Assembly: GCF_001507555.1 (NCBI RefSeq)
Contig: NZ_LQBO01000001.1
Span: 1,488,001 to 1,552,000, forward strand
DNA from: Thiomicrospira sp. XS5
GTDB lineage: Bacteria > Pseudomonadota > Gammaproteobacteria > Thiomicrospirales > Thiomicrospiraceae
DNA length: 64,000 nt
Direction of reading: 5' to 3'
Positions 6,125-15,286 of this stretch are shown here, piece after piece. Both the position numbers and the translations under genes were made by a program. Below the pieces are notes generated by a model. That model made no database searches and had not been told where the DNA came from. It saw only the letters and a list, made by a program, of their open reading frames with translations. Position 1 is the stretch's first letter, and the number at the start of each line of letters is the position of its first letter.

Positions 6125-6619
6125 GTGATTGATGAAGAGGGATACCGCTTAAATGTGGGTATCATTATCGTAAATAAAGAAGGAAAGCTGTTTTGGGGAA
6201 AACGCTTACACCAGGAAGCCTGGCAGTTTCCGCAAGGCGGGGTTCGTGAAAATGAAACGCCGCAGCAAGCTGTTTTCCGTGAATTGAGAGAAGAGGTTGG
6301 CTTGGAACCGTCCGATGTCCGAGTGCTTGGGCGTACACAGGATTGGTTGTCATACGACTTGCCAAAGCATTTGATCCGTCATTACAGCCAGCCGGTGTGC
6401 ATCGGCCAAAAACAGATTTGGTTTTTGCTGGGCATGTTGAGCGAAGAGGACAAGATTGATTTGAACACCCATGAAACGCCGGAGTTCGAAGGTTGGAGTT
6501 GGGTAGACTACTGGTTGCCGGTGCAAAACGTAGTGGAGTTCAAACAATCGGTTTACCAGCAGGCGCTAACGGAGCTGGAAGAACACCTCAATACATTCTG
6601 GATCAAAGAACACGCTTAA
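6125..6619 (+). CDS. rppH: RNA pyrophosphohydrolase RppH
   Basis: This Nudix hydrolase removes pyrophosphate from 5'-triphosphorylated RNA and so triggers mRNA decay. The Nudix box is complete: GGVRENETPQQAVFRELREE followed by VGLEPSD. The N-terminus VIDEEGYRLNVGIIIVN matches the usual RppH start (M-I-D-D-D-G-Y-R), so the GTG at 6125, preceded by AAAGGG, is chosen over a TTG 33 bases upstream. Length, 164 residues, is normal. Confidence 0.95.
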   Translation: MIDEEGYRLNVGIIIVNKEGKLFWGKRLHQEAWQFPQGGVRENETPQQAVFRELREEVGLEPSDVRVLGRTQDWLSYDLPKHLIRHYSQPVCIGQKQIWFLLGMLSEEDKIDLNTHETPEFEGWSWVDYWLPVQNVVEFKQSVYQQALTELEEHLNTFWIKEHA

Positions 6620-7013
6620 CTTCGCGTCGACTTTGGTCGACTGACCTGCCTTTTTGTTCCCGTAATGGGAACCGCTTTTCTATATTTTCGCATTTTAAAT
6701 CAAAATATTAACGACATTTCAGGAATCGATAAGCGTCGAAAGGGCGCTTAAAGCGCATCCTTCGTTAGGAAAACTAGGTAAAAAATGTTATGATGCCAGC
6801 GCATTTAATTTGAACTAGTGTAGTGTAATAGCTACGCCACAGGGAGACGTACGTCCCCAAACCTGAAAAGTTCAGACGTTTTGGAAATACTAAGTAGCTG
6901 GAAACCAAAATGGATTTGTTGGCGGTAGACGTAAGAACTACGTTCTACTGAATGGCTTCAGGAAAACCCAGCCCCTGAAGCAGGTTTGAACCAACCAAAG
7001 AGGTTAATTTTTT
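6620..7013 (+). promoter_or_regulatory. Promoter and strongly structured 5' leader of the aceE operon
   Basis: No gene is seen in these 394 bases. A -10-like TATGAT lies at 6789-6794 with a poor -35. Downstream are consecutive stems: TAGCTAC 6829-6835 with GTAGCTG 6894-6900, which encloses a GGG/CCC hairpin (6842-6858) and a nine-pair hairpin (6859-6881); then a nine-pair stem 6925-6948 with one bulge; then the perfect eight-pair GCTTCAGG/CCTGAAGC stem 6955-6981. The start codon follows AGAGG at ten bases. This density of pairing suggests a regulatory leader RNA. I do not recognise a known riboswitch or sRNA class. Confidence 0.5.
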
Positions 7014-9674
7014 ATGAACGATAAGTTCGTTGATCAAGATCCACAAGAAACACAAGAGTGGATCGATGCATTAGAGGCGGTCGTCTCTTTCGAAGGCTCC
7101 GACAAGGCGCAACACATTATTGGCTCCTTGATCGAGAAAGCCCGTGTCCACGGAATCGACATTCCTTATTCCGCAAACACCCCTTACATCAACACCATTG
7201 CACCGGAAGAGCAAAGCAACTATCCGGGTGATGTTGGCCTGGAACGCAAACTCCGCGCCTTGTTGCGCTGGAATGCCATGGCAATGGTGACGCGTGCGAA
7301 CAAAACCACCAGTGTCGGGGGGCATATCGCGTCTTATGCATCCAGCTGTACTTTGTATGAAGTCGGGATGAACCACTTCTTCAAAGGGCCAAAACACGAA
7401 CAAGGTGCCGATATGGTGTTCTTCCAAGGGCACACCGCACCGGGGATGTACGCACGTTCGTTTATGGAAGGGCGTCTGGAGGTGGATCAACTGCATAACT
7501 TCCGTCAGGAAGTCGACGGCAACGGCTTATCGTCTTACCCTCACCCTTGGTTGATGCAAGATTACTGGCAGTTCCCAACCGTTTCCATGGGCTTGGGGCC
7601 TTTGATGGCCATTTACCAAGCACGTTTCATGAAATACATGCAAGCACGCGGCTTGTCCGAAACCCAAGGCCGTAAAGTCTGGGCGTTCCTGGGCGACGGT
7701 GAAATGGACGAACCGGAATCCCGTGGTGCTTTGCAGCTGGCCAAACGTGAAAACCTGGACAACCTTATTTTCGTCATCAACTGTAACCTTCAGCGTCTGG
7801 ACGGACCGGTTCGAGGCAATGACAAAATCATTCAAGAACTGGAAGGGGTTTTCCGTGGTGCCGGTTGGAATGTTATTAAAGTCATTTGGGGCTCCGGCTG
7901 GGATCGTCTGTTGGCGAAAGACACCACCGGTAAACTGATCGAGCGTATGGGTGAAGTCGTGGACGGTGAGTACCAGGCTTACAAAGCCAAAGACGGTGCT
8001 TTCGTGCGCGAACACTTCTTCGGTAAATATCCGGAAACCGCCGAACTGGTCAAAGACATGACCGACGACGAAATTTTCCGTCTGACGCGCGGTGGCCACT
8101 CGCCACGTAAGATTTACAACGCTTACAAGCGCGCGACCGAAACACAAGGACAACCAACGGTCATCCTGGCGAAAACCATCAAAGGTTACGGGATGGGCAA
8201 ATACGGTGAAGCGGCCAACACCGCTCACCAACAGAAAAAACTGGATCAGGAAGGGCTGAAATACTTCCGTGACCGTTTCTCGGTGCCGGTTTCCGACGAA
8301 GAACTGGAAAAAGACATTCCGTTCCACCGTCCGGACGAAAACTCCGACATCATCAAATACATGAAAGAACGCCGTGAAGCCTTAGGCGGTGAATTGCCAG
8401 CGCGTCAAGACAACGCCGAGCCTTTACCGGTTCCAGAATTGTCGGCGTTCAAAATGCTGACCGAAGGCACCGAAGATCGTGAAATGTCCACGACCATGGC
8501 GTTCGTTCGTATCATCTCCATCCTGTTGCGTGACAAGAAAATCGGGCCACGTTGTGTGCCGATTATTCCGGATGAAGCACGTACTTTCGGGATGGAAGGT
8601 CTGTTCCGTCAAGTTGGTATCTACGATCCGGCCGGACAGCTTTACGAGCCAATGGATTCCGACCAATTGATGTGGTACAAGGAAGCCGCCAACGGGCAAG
8701 TGTTCCAAGAAGGGATTAACGAAGCCGGCGCCATGTCCAACTGGATCGCGGCGGCCACCGCTTACGCCAACTACGGCGTGAGCATGGTGCCTTTCTATAT
8801 TTACTACTCCATGTTCGGTTATCAGCGTATTGGTGACTTGGCGTGGGCGGCCGGGGATTCCCGCGCTCGTGGTTTCCTGATGGGCGGAACCGCCGGTCGT
8901 ACCACGCTGGAAGGCGAAGGTTTGCAACACCAGGACGGCCATAACCTGATTCAATTCGACCAGGTTCCGAACTGTATTTCCTACGACCCGACCTTCGCTT
9001 ACGAAATGGCGGTCATCATCCGTGACGGTATTCGTCGTATGTTCCATGATAAGGAAGACGTTTATTACTACATCACGTGCATGAACGAAAACTACTCGCA
9101 TCCGGCCATGCCGGAAGGATCGGAAGAAGGCATTCTGAAAGGGCTGTACTCCTTCAAGAAATCCGATGCGAAGCACAAAAACAAAGTACAACTTATGGGC
9201 TCCGGCACCATCTTCCGCGAAGTCATTGCGGCGGCGGAAATGCTGGAATCCGAATGGGATGTCGCCGCGGATATCTGGGCGGCCCCAAGTTTCAACCTGT
9301 TGCGTCGCGACGGGATTGAAACCGCACGCTGGAATGCGTTGCACCCAACCGAGACACAAAAACTGTCTTACTGTGAAGCCACTTTATCTGGTTCGGAAGG
9401 GCCATTTATTGCGGCCACCGACTATATTCGCGATTACCCGAACCGTATCCGCGAATATGTTCCAGGTGAATTCTATGTACTCGGGACCGACGGCTTTGGA
9501 CGTTCCGATACACGTGAACAACTGCGTAAGTTCTTCGAAGTGGACCGCTACTATGTTGTCGTGGAATCTTTGAAAGCGTTGGCCGATGCGGGCAGCATCA
9601 AGCCGGACGTTGTTCAGAAAGCAATTGAGAAATACGGGATTGATAGTGAAAAACCATACCCGGTTCATGCTTGA
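7014..9674 (+). CDS. aceE: Pyruvate dehydrogenase E1 component
   Basis: This homodimeric-type E1 of 886 residues (E. coli: 887) decarboxylates pyruvate with thiamine diphosphate and acetylates the lipoyl group of E2. Visible hallmarks are the thiamine diphosphate motif GDGEMDEPESRG near residue 229, with the following NCNLQRLDGPVRGN, and the C-terminal transketolase-like block with GRTTLEGEGLQHQDGHN. It is the first gene of aceE-aceF-lpdA, with 95 bp before aceF, and has the folded leader described upstream. Confidence 0.98.
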   Translation: MNDKFVDQDPQETQEWIDALEAVVSFEGSDKAQHIIGSLIEKARVHGIDIPYSANTPYINTIAPEEQSNYPGDVGLERKLRALLRWNAMAMVTRANKTTSVGGHIASYASSCTLYEVGMNHFFKGPKHEQGADMVFFQGHTAPGMYARSFMEGRLEVDQLHNFRQEVDGNGLSSYPHPWLMQDYWQFPTVSMGLGPLMAIYQARFMKYMQARGLSETQGRKVWAFLGDGEMDEPESRGALQLAKRENLDNLIFVINCNLQRLDGPVRGNDKIIQELEGVFRGAGWNVIKVIWGSGWDRLLAKDTTGKLIERMGEVVDGEYQAYKAKDGAFVREHFFGKYPETAELVKDMTDDEIFRLTRGGHSPRKIYNAYKRATETQGQPTVILAKTIKGYGMGKYGEAANTAHQQKKLDQEGLKYFRDRFSVPVSDEELEKDIPFHRPDENSDIIKYMKERREALGGELPARQDNAEPLPVPELSAFKMLTEGTEDREMSTTMAFVRIISILLRDKKIGPRCVPIIPDEARTFGMEGLFRQVGIYDPAGQLYEPMDSDQLMWYKEAANGQVFQEGINEAGAMSNWIAAATAYANYGVSMVPFYIYYSMFGYQRIGDLAWAAGDSRARGFLMGGTAGRTTLEGEGLQHQDGHNLIQFDQVPNCISYDPTFAYEMAVIIRDGIRRMFHDKEDVYYYITCMNENYSHPAMPEGSEEGILKGLYSFKKSDAKHKNKVQLMGSGTIFREVIAAAEMLESEWDVAADIWAAPSFNLLRRDGIETARWNALHPTETQKLSYCEATLSGSEGPFIAATDYIRDYPNRIREYVPGEFYVLGTDGFGRSDTREQLRKFFEVDRYYVVVESLKALADAGSIKPDVVQKAIEKYGIDSEKPYPVHA

Positions 9675-9769: not shown

Positions 9770-11098
9770 ATGGCTACACAGCAAATTAATATCCCGGATA
9801 TAGGTGATTTTGATTCCGTCGAAGTCATCGAAGTATTGGTTGCCGAAGGGGATGTGGTCGCGGTGGACGATTCTCTGGTAACGTTGGAATCGGACAAAGC
9901 CACCATGGAAATCCCATCTCCAGTCAGTGGTAAAGTGACCAAAGTCACGGTCAAAGTGGGTGACAGTGTCGCGGAAGGCGATTACATTCTAGACATCGAA
10001 GCCGACAAAGCGGCGGCGGAAGAAGCACCGAAAGCCGAAACGAAAAAAGAAGAACCTGTTCAAGAAGCGCCTAAAGAGGCTCCAAAAGCCGCCGCACCGG
10101 CGGAAAAGCCAGCGCCACAAGAAACCAAAGCACCAGCGCCTAATGTGCCGCCTGTGCCGAAGCCGGTCAATGCTCAGTCCATGGGCGCGGCTTATCACGC
10201 GTCGCCATCGGTGCGTGCTTTCGCGCGTAAATTGGGCGTGGACCTGAATGCCGTCACCGGCACCGGGCCAAAAGGACGCATCCAGCAAAACGACGTCGAA
10301 GCCATGATCAAATCGGTCATGCAAGGTTCGGCCGCGGCTTCCGGCCAGCCACAAGGCGGCGCGGGCATTCCAGCCGTTCCGGAAATCGATTTCAGCCAAT
10401 TCGGTGAAACCGAAACCGTCGAACTGGGTCGCATCAAGAAAATCTCCGGTAAGTTCCTGCAAACCTCTTGGTTGAATGTGCCGCACGTCACGCAGTTTGA
10501 CGAAAGCGACATCACCGAGATGGATGCTTTCCGTAAGAGCATGAAAGCCCAGGCCGAAAAAGCCGGAGTCAAATTGACGCCGCTGGTGTTCGTCATGAAA
10601 GCCGTGGTCAAAGCCTTGCAGGAGTTCCCGAACTTCAACGCCTCCTTGTCGCCGGACGGTCAATCCATTATCAAGAAGCATTACTACAACATCGGTGTCG
10701 CGGTCGATACGCCGAACGGCTTGGTCGTTCCAGTCGTGCGCGATGTCGATCAAAAAGGCATCTTCGATTTGTCCAAAGACCTGATGGAACTGTCCGCCAA
10801 AGCGCGTGACGGCAAACTGACCCCGGCGGATATGTCCGGCGGCTGTTTCACCATCTCCAGCTTGGGCGGCATCGGCGGCACGCAATTCACGCCAATCGTC
10901 AATGCACCGGAAGTCGCCATCATGGGCTTGTCCAAAGCCAAGATGCAACCGGTCTGGAACGGCGCAGAATTTGAACCGCGTTTGGTGATGCCATTCAGCG
11001 TGTCTTACGACCACCGCGTTATCGACGGGGCGGAAGGCGTGCGCTTCACCACCACCGTTGGTCAATACCTGACCGATCTACGCCAGCTGATTCTGTAA
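9770..11098 (+). CDS. aceF: Dihydrolipoyl acetyltransferase, pyruvate dehydrogenase E2
   Basis: E2 core of the pyruvate dehydrogenase complex, 442 residues. It has one N-terminal lipoyl domain (lipoylated Lys43 in ESDKATME), an Ala/Pro/Lys-rich linker, a peripheral subunit-binding domain (SPSVRAFARKLGVDLNAVTG), and the catalytic acetyltransferase domain ending with the active-site HRVIDG. E. coli E2 has three lipoyl domains, so this one is short; the missing capacity may be partly met by the lipoyl domain on the neighbouring E3. The ATG follows AAAAAGGAAT. Confidence 0.97.
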   Translation: MATQQINIPDIGDFDSVEVIEVLVAEGDVVAVDDSLVTLESDKATMEIPSPVSGKVTKVTVKVGDSVAEGDYILDIEADKAAAEEAPKAETKKEEPVQEAPKEAPKAAAPAEKPAPQETKAPAPNVPPVPKPVNAQSMGAAYHASPSVRAFARKLGVDLNAVTGTGPKGRIQQNDVEAMIKSVMQGSAAASGQPQGGAGIPAVPEIDFSQFGETETVELGRIKKISGKFLQTSWLNVPHVTQFDESDITEMDAFRKSMKAQAEKAGVKLTPLVFVMKAVVKALQEFPNFNASLSPDGQSIIKKHYYNIGVAVDTPNGLVVPVVRDVDQKGIFDLSKDLMELSAKARDGKLTPADMSGGCFTISSLGGIGGTQFTPIVNAPEVAIMGLSKAKMQPVWNGAEFEPRLVMPFSVSYDHRVIDGAEGVRFTTTVGQYLTDLRQLIL

Positions 11099-11111: not shown

Positions 11112-12881
11112 ATGAGTAAAGTAGTGGATATTCTCATTCCCGATATCGGTGATTTCGCTGAAGTAGACGTCATTGAAGTATTGGTCGCCGCCGGGGACGA
11201 AGTCATTCAGGACGATTCCTTGCTGACCTTGGAATCCGACAAAGCGACCATGGAAATCCCGGCGCCGTTCGCCGGTAAGGTGACCGAAGTCAATATCAGC
11301 GTCGGGGATAAGGTCAAGGAAGGTTCCGTCGTCGGGAAAATCGAAATCGCCGACGAAGAAACCGTTTCTTCCAATGTCGAAGAAAGCGTCACACCCGATG
11401 AAACCCCTGAAGAAAAAGCGCCGGAAGCGCCAGCGGCCGTCGCCGCCAGCGATTTGCCGGATGCCGATATTCAGTGCGAAGTCTTGGTGCTGGGCTCCGG
11501 CCCGGGTGGTTATACCGCCGCGTTCCGCGCCGCCGACTTGGGCAAAAAAGTGGTGATGATCGAGCGTTATTCCTCCATCGGCGGTGTGTGTTTGAACGTG
11601 GGTTGTATCCCATCCAAAGCCTTGTTGCACATGTCCGTGGTGTTGAACGAAACCCGCGAAATGGGCGCGCACGGCATCACCTTCGCCGAGCCGGAAATCG
11701 ACCTCAACAAAATGCGCGATTACAAAAACTCCGTGATCGGTAAGTTGACCGGCGGTTTGTCAGGCCTGGCCAAAGCGCGTAATGTGGACGTGGTGCAAGG
11801 TTACGGCAAATTCAGCTCCGCCAACACCGTCACGGTCGAACTGGCCGAGGGCGGCACGCAAACCATCGCGTTTGAAAACGCCATTATCGCCGCCGGTTCC
11901 CGCGTGGTGAAACTGCCGTTTATTCCGCATGACGACCCGCGCGTGATGGATTCCACCGATGCGCTAGAACTGGAAGAAGTGCCGAATCGCATGCTGGTCA
12001 TCGGCGGCGGCATCATCGGGCTGGAAATGGCGCAGGTGTACGATTCTTTGGGGGCGAATGTCACTATTGTGGAATTGGCCGACAACATCATTCCCGGCGC
12101 AGATAAAGACATCGTCCGTCCGCTGTTGAAGCAAATCAAAAAGAAATACGAAAACATCTACCTCGGTTCCAAGGTTACCAATGTGGAAGCCACGGACGCA
12201 GGCCTGGTGGTTTCTTTCGAAGGCAAAGGCTGCCCGGAAACCGATACGTTTGACCGCATTCTGGTCGCCGTCGGTCGTGCGCCGAACGGTAAGTTGATTG
12301 ACGCCGAAAAAGCCGGTGTCGCTGTTAACGACTGGGGCTTTATCGAAGTGGACGAACGCCAAAAAACCAATGTGGACCACATCTACGCCATCGGCGACAT
12401 CGTCGGGCAACCGATGTTGGCGCACAAAGCGGTGCATGAAGGCAAAGTGGCGGCGGAAGTCATTAACGGTATGCCAAGCGCCTTTACGCCAATGGGCATT
12501 CCGTCCGTCGCCTATACTGATCCGGAAGTCGCTTGGGCCGGTAAAACCGAAGACGAGTTGAAAGCCGAAGGCATCGAATACGAAAAAGGCGCTTTCCCTT
12601 GGGCCGCGTCTGGTCGTAGCTTGAGCCTCGGCCGTGACGAAGGCATGACCAAAGCCTTGTTCTGTGCCGAAACGCATCGCCTGTTAGGGTGTGGAATCGT
12701 CGGTCCGAACGCTGGTGAACTGGTCGCCGAAGCCATGCTCGCCATTGAAATGGGCGCCGACATGCAAGACATTGGTCTTACCATCCATCCGCACCCAACG
12801 CTCAGCGAAACACTCTGTTTCGCTGCGGAAATGGCGGAAGGCACGATTACAGACCTGATGCCACCGAAAAAGAAAAAATAG
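11112..12881 (+). CDS. lpdA: Dihydrolipoamide dehydrogenase (E3) with N-terminal lipoyl domain
   Basis: Flavoprotein that reoxidises dihydrolipoamide with NAD+. At 589 residues it is about 115 longer than the usual E3 because of an N-terminal lipoyl domain (Lys44 in ESDKATME) and a Glu/Ala/Pro linker. The E3 part starts near residue 117 with the FAD-binding GSGPGGYTAA, the redox-active disulfide GGVCLNVGCIPSK, a second Rossmann motif GGGIIGLEMA, and the catalytic HPHPTLSE. Lipoyl-E3 fusions are known in some other proteobacteria such as Neisseria. It sits 13 bp after aceF and ends at a clear terminator. Confidence 0.96.
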   Translation: MSKVVDILIPDIGDFAEVDVIEVLVAAGDEVIQDDSLLTLESDKATMEIPAPFAGKVTEVNISVGDKVKEGSVVGKIEIADEETVSSNVEESVTPDETPEEKAPEAPAAVAASDLPDADIQCEVLVLGSGPGGYTAAFRAADLGKKVVMIERYSSIGGVCLNVGCIPSKALLHMSVVLNETREMGAHGITFAEPEIDLNKMRDYKNSVIGKLTGGLSGLAKARNVDVVQGYGKFSSANTVTVELAEGGTQTIAFENAIIAAGSRVVKLPFIPHDDPRVMDSTDALELEEVPNRMLVIGGGIIGLEMAQVYDSLGANVTIVELADNIIPGADKDIVRPLLKQIKKKYENIYLGSKVTNVEATDAGLVVSFEGKGCPETDTFDRILVAVGRAPNGKLIDAEKAGVAVNDWGFIEVDERQKTNVDHIYAIGDIVGQPMLAHKAVHEGKVAAEVINGMPSAFTPMGIPSVAYTDPEVAWAGKTEDELKAEGIEYEKGAFPWAASGRSLSLGRDEGMTKALFCAETHRLLGCGIVGPNAGELVAEAMLAIEMGADMQDIGLTIHPHPTLSETLCFAAEMAEGTITDLMPPKKKK

Positions 12882-12976: not shown

Positions 12977-15286
12977 ATGGTTGAACAGAATAAACTCAAG
13001 GAACAGCTGGTTGCCTTATTAGAATCCGATGAATTTAACCATGATAAGTTAATTTCGCTTTCGCACCAAATTGCTGAATTAGATAAAAATTCTGTTCGGT
13101 TTTCAATTGATGCTGGTGTTATAGATCGTTTGGGTCAGGAGTTAGTTGCACGACAGGAAACAGCGGTTTCTGAACTTGTAAAAAATGCATATGATGCTGA
13201 TGCAACTAAAGTCACATTAACGTTTGTAGATTCTGACAAGGTCGGAGGTGTTCTTATTATCGAAGATGATGGGGATGGAATGACGAGAGAAGAGTTAATT
13301 AACGGTTTTATGAGAATATCTTCTACAAGTAAAATCCATGAACCTATTTCTAGACGATATTCGAGAAAAAGAGCTGGCCAAAAGGGCATAGGGCGTTTTG
13401 CAGTTCAAAGATTAGGAGAGAGGCTTGTTATTAATTCGCAGGTCAAAGAAGTGGATACAGCTTTAAAGGTCGAGATTAACTGGAATGAATATAAGCAAGA
13501 TATGAGTTTATTGTCTATCTCAAATAAACTTACTGAATGTGAAAAGTCAAAATCACATGGTACAACATTGGTTATTTCAGGGTTACGTGACAAATGGACT
13601 ACTGCGGCAATTAAAAGAGTTTACCGTTACACATCTAATATCCTTCAACCCTTTCCTCTTTCGAAGGTTTCGGATAATCCTGAAGATAAGGTTGATCCAG
13701 GCTTTAAAGCAGTATTTAGCAAGGTTGAAGGAACTTCAGAAACGGTTGTTGCTGACGATTCCAAGATGATTTTCGATAATGCTGTCGCAGTCATAGAAGG
13801 ATATATAGACAAATCTGGGATTGGTATTTATACCATTGATAGTGACAAAATTGATTTAAATGAAGTTGGAGAAATTGGTAATGACCCTGATGACAGTTCG
13901 ATTCCATTTTCAGAATTAAAGAATATAAGGTTCCGTGCATACTATTTTCTATATGGTCTAGGGTATATACCAAAATCACAAGAAACAGTAATTCGTTCTT
14001 TGGCCCGTAAAGAAGGTGGGATTAGGTTATATCGAAATGGATTTAGAGTATTACCATATGCTGAACCTGGTGATGATTGGTTAAAGCTTGATGAATCAGT
14101 TGGTAAAAGATCCATTCTTGCACCACATGGTAATAATAACTTTTTTGGTTTTGTTGAAATGATTGATAAAGATAATCAATACAATGAGACATCAAGCCGT
14201 GAAGGTTTGATTTCCAATGAAGCATTTAGACAGATGCAAAATTTTATTTATCGTACTCTTATTACAGGAGTGGTAAAAGTTGCAAATGTTAGAAAATCCA
14301 AAATTACTTCTGGTCAGGTTAGAGACGATTCAGGACAGTGGGAATCTATAGAGGTAAGAGTAAAAAATATTGCATTATCCTTAGAAGAACTAGATAAGGA
14401 GTTAGAGCGTGAGGCGGGTGGTGTAGAAGCACGTAAACGTAGGAAAAGAAAAGTTAAAAAAGTCCAAAAAGAAATTAAAGAAGTTTATGAAATTCAACAA
14501 ATAGAATATAAAAAATTACTGCAAGAGCGTTCTATGTTGCGTGTTTTAAGTAGCGTTGGTTTAACCGTTTCTCAGTTTATCCATGAAATAAAATATTATA
14601 TGGACAATATTCAAAGTGATATCCGATTTGTACTTGGCGCACTTGAATGTGATTCAACGTTATTTAAACGAATGTCAATTTTAGAGAATAATTTCAATAC
14701 CTTTCAAACATACACATCTTATTTTAATGATGTAGTTTCACAAAATGTGGTTAGAGAAGTGCAACCTTTGAATATGAAGGTTGTTATTGATAAGTTTATA
14801 AATGCGATTAAATATGACGCTGAAAAATCTGGAATTGAAGTTTTGGAGCCCAAATATAATAAACTTAGACTAATAACGAAACCTATGCATCCTTCTGAAT
14901 GGTCATCAATATTGTTCAATTTTTATACAAATTCTAAAAAAGCCATTAAAAGAGCTAATGTTAATGGCGAAATATTGATTGAGTGTGGAGAAGAGGATGG
15001 TTCAATATATTTAGAGTTTTCTGATAATGGTGATGGTATTGCAAAAGAGAATGAAGAGAAGGTTTTTGATGAGTTTTATACAACGACCTCTCCTATCAAT
15101 TTTGATGATTTAGACACAAACAATGAAGTATTAGGCAGTGGTTTGGGTTTGAAGATTGTCAAAGACATCGTTAAGAGTTATAGAGGGGCCATAGCTGTTG
15201 TGTCGCCAAAAGGTGAGTTTTCAACTTGTATAAGAATTGATATTCAAAAAGCTTCTGAAAAGGATTTAGAAAATTATGGCCTTTAA
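12977..15286 (+). CDS. Protein with two GHKL ATPase domains: HSP90/MORC-like plus histidine-kinase-like
   Basis: This 769-residue protein opens the AT-rich island. Residues about 45-225 form an HSP90/MutL/MORC-type ATPase: N-box ELVKNAYDADA (66-76), EDDGDGM (96-102), GQKGIGRFA (134-142). After a middle region comes a basic coiled coil (about 465-520), then an H-box-like FIHEIKYYMDNI with candidate phospho-acceptor His536, and a second, kinase-type ATPase: N-box about 641-655, SDNGDGI (682-688), GSGLGLKIV (720-728). The C-terminal half looks like a cytosolic histidine kinase. There are no membrane segments. The stop overlaps the next gene by 11 bases. MORC-like ATPases linked to restriction-modification (paraMORC) are known; this double arrangement I do not recognise. 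Confidence 0.85.
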   Translation: MVEQNKLKEQLVALLESDEFNHDKLISLSHQIAELDKNSVRFSIDAGVIDRLGQELVARQETAVSELVKNAYDADATKVTLTFVDSDKVGGVLIIEDDGDGMTREELINGFMRISSTSKIHEPISRRYSRKRAGQKGIGRFAVQRLGERLVINSQVKEVDTALKVEINWNEYKQDMSLLSISNKLTECEKSKSHGTTLVISGLRDKWTTAAIKRVYRYTSNILQPFPLSKVSDNPEDKVDPGFKAVFSKVEGTSETVVADDSKMIFDNAVAVIEGYIDKSGIGIYTIDSDKIDLNEVGEIGNDPDDSSIPFSELKNIRFRAYYFLYGLGYIPKSQETVIRSLARKEGGIRLYRNGFRVLPYAEPGDDWLKLDESVGKRSILAPHGNNNFFGFVEMIDKDNQYNETSSREGLISNEAFRQMQNFIYRTLITGVVKVANVRKSKITSGQVRDDSGQWESIEVRVKNIALSLEELDKELEREAGGVEARKRRKRKVKKVQKEIKEVYEIQQIEYKKLLQERSMLRVLSSVGLTVSQFIHEIKYYMDNIQSDIRFVLGALECDSTLFKRMSILENNFNTFQTYTSYFNDVVSQNVVREVQPLNMKVVIDKFINAIKYDAEKSGIEVLEPKYNKLRLITKPMHPSEWSSILFNFYTNSKKAIKRANVNGEILIECGEEDGSIYLEFSDNGDGIAKENEEKVFDEFYTTTSPINFDDLDTNNEVLGSGLGLKIVKDIVKSYRGAIAVVSPKGEFSTCIRIDIQKASEKDLENYGL

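Follow-up and report, generated by a model that had tools for sequence, protein, structure and literature searches.

A conserved candidate cis-regulatory RNA with three covarying hairpins in the aceE leader of one gammaproteobacterial family

The aceE locus and its leader

The window analyzed in this study is a stretch of 64,000 nucleotides from Thiomicrospira sp. XS5, and all positions given here refer to it. On its forward strand, an open reading frame at 7014-9674 encodes the 886-aa pyruvate dehydrogenase E1 (aceE), and it is followed on the same strand by an aceF-like frame (9770-11098) and an lpd-like frame (11112-12881); the three names were assigned by sequence reading. After the lpd-like gene there is a 769-aa frame (12977-15286, forward strand) which, judged by eye, resembles an ATP-binding protein of the GHKL type.

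The aceE leader, ahead of aceE-aceF-lpd, occupies 6801-7013. The region 6789-7013 folds with -64.5 kcal/mol, compared with -49.7 ± 4.7 kcal/mol for 200 dinucleotide shuffles (z = -3.17), two of which folded equally well. The initial annotation had claimed that the density of structure in this leader is above chance, and this comparison bears it out. When Rfam 15 was searched against 6600-7060 at E ≤ 10, nothing was found except RMST_1, a chance match of 11 bits. The sole Rfam match at the gathering level in the window is the cspA thermoregulator (RF01766; 60922-61346, reverse strand, 89.1 bits, gathering 78).

A DNA search with the leader gave matches in 31 of 55 relatives. The first 200 residues of the aceE product were matched in 60 of the 62 family genomes, and 59 leaders were readable (the contig of G028 begins within aceE, and G008 and G064 have no aceE match). 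The word AAGTAGC together with a common layout was found in 36 of these 59 leaders, in all of which the element directly abuts the aceE ribosome site.

An extended -10 box, TGTTATGAT, is located at 6786-6794 on the forward strand, with a predicted transcription start at about 6801. Exactly one occurrence of its pattern, TGNTA(T/C)NAT, was found in each of 55 of the 59 family leaders. From this arrangement we infer that transcription starts about 210 bases before aceE, which would make the RNA the 5' portion of the aceE transcript. A start downstream of the stems had been named in advance as evidence against a leader RNA; at the sequence level the promoter box lies upstream of the RNA core in 36/36 leaders, so that the proposal was not refuted on this point.

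Hairpins, probable loop-loop contact and proposed closing helix

The core of the RNA has three hairpins on the forward strand, which were compared in two alignments. Alignment A1 was made with MAFFT and has 35 rows, G018 being omitted as nearly identical to G012. Alignment A3 has 38 rows (37 distinct) and was fitted to the model, toward which it is biased; for this genome, the 3' arm of P2 remains shifted in A3. P1 is formed by CGTTTTGG (6877-6884) and CCAAAATG (6905-6912), and in A3 all 8 of its pairs are changed on both sides, with 95.5% of cells paired. Its loop of 20 nt (6885-6904) contains the invariant ACNAAGTAGC at 6889-6898. P2 (6923-6933/6939-6950) carries one bulged base and the loop NGAMC, which is AGAAC in this genome; 9 of its 11 pairs are changed on both sides in A3. 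P3 is formed by GCTTCAGG (6955-6962) and CCTGAAGC (6974-6981), and has a loop of 11 nt with a conserved ACCC. All 7 modelled pairs of P3 are changed on both sides in A3, and 97.7% of cells are paired.

Unprompted, RNAalifold on A1 returned P1, the top of P2, and P3, with both-side changes in at least one sequence in 14 of 18 pairs. For the fuller structure, which adds to P1, P2 and P3 the helix P4 and the loop-loop kiss described below, both-side changes were found on A1 in 21 of 36 pairs, a value equalled by 0 of 500 shuffles, and shifting this structure by 1-3 columns lowered the paired cells from 87.5% to at most 53%. On A3, both-side changes were found in 24 of 31 modelled pairs, with 93.6% of cells paired, and again 0 of 500 shuffles were equal. 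When the changes were mapped on an aceE tree covering 28 of the 36 genomes, about 55 double substitutions were counted (P1, 20; P2, 26; P3, 9), together with 28 pair breaks (P1, 8; P2, 17; P3, 3). The double-substitution totals are parsimony counts on the fitted alignment and hence rough; many of the substitutions are independent. By the measure of comparative sequence, these substitutions demonstrate that P1, P2 and P3 are conserved hairpins maintained by compensatory change. Aligning the aceE leaders of related genomes in search of covarying pairs, as suggested in the initial annotation, thus gave a positive answer, with P1-P3 present in 36 of the 59 family leaders.

Folding also places a stem, P0, directly 5' of P1 (6811-6874, forward strand), with the outer arms TGAACT (6811-6816) and AGTTCA (6869-6874). 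The region from the predicted start to P1, folded in the 36 leaders, gave a mean z of -1.9 and a median of -2.0, with several leaders near 0. P0 is variable in sequence and length, and the stem is mostly retained without being evident in all leaders.

The initial annotation had drawn five stems between 6829 and 6981 and had named two of them. The hairpin GCTTCAGG/CCTGAAGC near the ribosome site is indeed present and corresponds to P3, the stem of which covaries. The other, a multibranch helix TAGCTAC/GTAGCTG, was rejected, since TAGCTAC (6829-6835) occurs in 1 of the 36 leaders, that of this genome alone. It lies within the variable 5' part, in a stretch that is absent from the nearest relative (G002), and in the minimum-energy fold of 6789-7013 it is paired locally and not with GTAGCTG. 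GTAGCTG (6894-6900) is part of the conserved P1 loop.

The P1 loop contains the strand GCTGG (6897-6901) and the P3 loop its complement, CCAGC (6968-6972), both on the forward strand. This kiss (GCUGG × CCAGC) has five standard pairs in 30 of the 36 leaders and four pairs, one of them G-U, in G066; its central pair is broken in three of the 36 (G004, G056 and G065). The sole both-side change is U-A to A-U, in G001 and G010. A kissing contact between the two loops is probable.

A closing helix, P4, is proposed between GTTGG (6918-6922), which adjoins P2, and CCAAC (6991-6995), which does not vary among the 35 A1 leaders and lies four bases 5' of the Shine-Dalgarno core; both strands are on the forward strand. 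In the core folds of the 36 leaders, formation of P4 gains a mean of 2.9 kcal/mol, and the helix GUUGG × CCAAC likely forms. P4 is unproven because its strands are nearly invariant, with zero covariation; they are mismatched in G003 and in the group of G001, G004 and G010.

Distribution and published aceE leaders

Within the family, the element is carried by 10/10 genomes of the own genus (Hydrogenovibrio-type), 25/31 of genus g3 (Thiomicrorhabdus-type) and the single genome of g4 (1/1), and it was not found in the leaders of g2 (0/3), g5 (0/1), g6 (0/9) and g7 (0/4). It is thus missing or decayed in 23 of the 59 family leaders, with aceE retained. Six g3 genomes lack AAGTAGC, and two of these, G068 and G074, retain P2 and P3 without P1. 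With R1, a covariance model built for this leader RNA, these two leaders score E = 1.8e-5 and 4.4e-8, respectively; the CCAGC strand of the kiss has drifted in both, and they look like stages in a decay series. All nine g6 leaders (L019, L020, L023, L024, L025, L055, L058, L060 and L075) have ACCCAAGAGGT at the Shine-Dalgarno site and no RNA. Upstream of it they have a hairpin whose loop is of the ACCC type and which may be distantly related to P3; RNAalifold gave 7 pairs only, at -2 kcal/mol.

In its own genome, R1 gives one match only at E ≤ 10, with no second copy. Among 62 genomes of the order, matches were found at E ≤ 1 in 40 and at E ≤ 1e-4 in 38, all 38 at the aceE leader. The weak matches in G077 (E = 0.19) and G059 (E = 0.6) share no common sequence and are chance-like, so a second RNA-controlled gene was rejected. 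In a shallow class-wide scan, with 8 candidates scored per genome, R1 matched 2 of 369 genomes, both of this family. Outside the family, aceE was found in 181 genomes of the class, and 67 of these aceE loci were tested: with default filters, R1 gave no match at E ≤ 10 in 27, and with filters off nothing convincing in 40 (best 9.3 bits, E = 1.6). A pattern scan over named genomes returned 18 contigs, of which 15 belong to Thiomicrorhabdus, Hydrogenovibrio, Thiomicrospira or Thiotrichales bins and 3 are unrelated. Three loci outside the order that matched the pattern (L115, L123 and L124) were rejected because R1 did not score them convincingly (best 7.6 bits, E = 4.1). The element is narrowly distributed and lineage-restricted, and no copy was found outside one family in the scans made. 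In L129 of G206, which has the closest aceE outside the family, the leader is GC-rich and contains both a TAGTATGAT box and, as a long inverted repeat, GGAGCCCGG...CCGGGCTCC; this is perhaps another structured aceE leader.

The RNA aceE-II (RF04317) has been described as a riboswitch candidate upstream of aceE in Thioalkalivibrio, where aceE heads an operon that also has aceF and lpdA (PMC11109978). On that description both are cis-regulatory candidates before aceE in a sulfur-oxidizing gammaproteobacterium, both have a narrow distribution, and the leader RNA described here lies directly upstream of aceE, as is required of aceE-II. They also have in common GUUGGCGG and CCAACCC, the latter just 5' of the Shine-Dalgarno site in both, whereas the stems of aceE-II differ from those of this leader. 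RF04317 (gathering 100 bits) had no match on the leader at E ≤ 10 and none in the whole window at gathering, and it was over the cut-off in 0 of 60 genomes of this order. In the reverse test on 20 RF04317 loci (15 over the cut-off), R1 with filters off gave one match, of 6.5 bits and E = 8.9. In the class, RF04317 was found in one genome (L177), in whose family of 47 genomes it reached E ≤ 0.001 in 20 and exceeded the cut-off in 15. The sharing of GUUGGCGG is probably a coincidence, because in aceE-II it sits between TTGACC and GATACT, which resemble -35 and -10 boxes. A GTAGC-type word was found in 5 of 66 other aceE leaders (the 67 less L135), which is about chance by a rough estimate. Since the model tests were negative in both directions, kinship with aceE-II by way of GUUGGCGG, CCAACCC and the GUAGC words was rejected.

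In the 5' third of RF04317, TTGACC and GATACT lie about 18 bases apart (first 80 bases of L204-L221 and L223), and they are also retained in L219-L221 and L223, where most of the remaining sequence diverges. Part of the RF04317 model may be sigma-70 promoter DNA, perhaps untranscribed.

The aceE motif of Weinberg et al. (2010), also named for aceE, is listed in Table 1 of that report for gammaproteobacteria as probably cis-regulatory, as 'ambiguous' as an RNA and with no Rfam accession (PMC2864571). That the present element was found in one family only argues to some extent against identity of the two. In E. coli, RNase III cuts the pdhR-aceE intergenic region of the aceE-aceF-lpd mRNA, which is longer-lived without the enzyme (PMC5371410). 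There, RNA structure before aceE affects the operon mRNA; the E. coli hairpin would form only when transcription starts ahead of the preceding gene (PMC5371410). No report of the present leader RNA was found in the open-access PubMed Central literature.

Possible mode of action

The Shine-Dalgarno core of aceE, GAGG (7000-7003, forward strand), is conserved before the start codon, with AAGG in G056, G065 and G066. No intrinsic terminator was found in the leader of this genome. After P3, 35 of the 36 leaders have at most 4 T per 8 bases (one leader has 5 T in 8), and control by termination is unlikely because such a terminator-like T tract is lacking in these 35. With the Shine-Dalgarno site marking the end of the conserved fold, control would most naturally act on translation initiation. 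Pair probabilities hinted that CCAACC alternates between GUUGG of P4 and the Shine-Dalgarno site; with P4 forced on and off, the site was open at 0.38 and 0.40, respectively, and an anti-Shine-Dalgarno switch was not supported. It is possible that the kissing fold provides a steric or tertiary expression platform.

With a covarying structure in the predicted 5' UTR of one gene, the leader is a cis-regulatory structured RNA as far as sequence comparison defines one. That a cis-acting RNA precedes aceE had been proposed from the single sequence, and it is now strongly supported by the conserved position, the covariation and the promoter box, upstream in 36/36 leaders. We favor, as a reasonably probable reading, that the leader is a cis-acting structured RNA of the aceE-aceF-lpd mRNA that tunes translation initiation. 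The following mechanism is conceivable: Transcription from the extended -10 promoter would place the RNA at the 5' end of the aceE mRNA. The kiss of the P1 and P3 loops, with P4 stacked on P2, would then give a compact fold whose 3' end lies four bases short of the Shine-Dalgarno core. Stabilization of this fold, whether by a protein or by a metabolite from the pyruvate dehydrogenase step, may set the landing of the 30S subunit, so that the operon would be adjusted at translation initiation and not at termination. As a guess, folding would repress by a steric block just 5' of the Shine-Dalgarno site.

Tentatively, the leader could represent a new riboswitch class that arose independently of aceE-II, its kissing-loop core directly sensing a pyruvate dehydrogenase metabolite and so controlling translation of the entire operon in sulfur oxidizers that live autotrophically. 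The ligand may be pyruvate, acetyl-CoA or CoA, NADH, or a thiamine or lipoyl derivative; the initial annotation had offered pyruvate, acetyl-CoA or redox state as what might be sensed.

The fold may instead be read by a protein, either one of the pyruvate dehydrogenase subunits or some other RNA binder, which would recognize the loops of P1 and P3 and modulate translation or decay of the operon mRNA, possibly autogenously. A single target, a single copy, a narrow range and invariant loops are also typical of autogenous leaders, and one target gene, a single copy, a narrow distribution and invariant single-stranded loop letters are found here. A search of the own genome with R1 at E ≤ 10 yielded no further site, which counts against such a protein, and we consider it somewhat unlikely.

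The leader may also stabilize the mRNA rather than sense anything, its hairpins shielding the 5' end or forming a site for RNase III or RNase E. The persistence of most P0 stems while their sequence is free to vary would fit such a role, as would the RNase III precedent in the E. coli aceE-aceF-lpd mRNA (PMC5371410). However, the invariant loop letters and the complementarity of the P1 and P3 loops would be left unexplained, which makes a purely stabilizing or processing structure distinctly improbable.

A further suggestion of the initial annotation was an independent small RNA encoded ahead of aceE. It would have its own promoter box and a strong structure, but no terminator was found in the leader, the T tract does not exceed 4 in 8 bases in 35/36 leaders, and the conserved structure reaches the aceE ribosome site; the suggestion was rejected and has very little left in its favor. 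As alternatives to an RNA, a translated leader peptide and an operator conserved at the DNA level are already largely refuted and hardly credible, since the near-palindrome TACTAAGTA that could be an operator has lost its left half in G006, G012 and G056 with AAGTAGC retained, the 13-codon ATG frame over P2 in this genome belongs to frames that vary by genus and are not common across genera, no ATG frame of at least 8 codons with a ribosome site was found in any family leader examined, and the compensatory pair changes speak against both.

In conclusion, the best reading is that the aceE leader is a probably new cis-regulatory RNA of narrow distribution, either riboswitch-like or bound by a protein, which probably works at translation initiation. 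Pyruvate dehydrogenase is the gate through which sugar-phosphate carbon passes to acetyl-CoA, and to our knowledge neither pyruvate nor acetyl-CoA has a validated riboswitch. Two orphan aceE motifs have been published, and this element adds another one, without detectable relation to RF04317. The strong record of covariation and the core of about 120 bases make RNA sensing of this node testable on a small construct. If this RNA and aceE-II bind the same ligand, they would represent convergent evolution around one metabolic decision.
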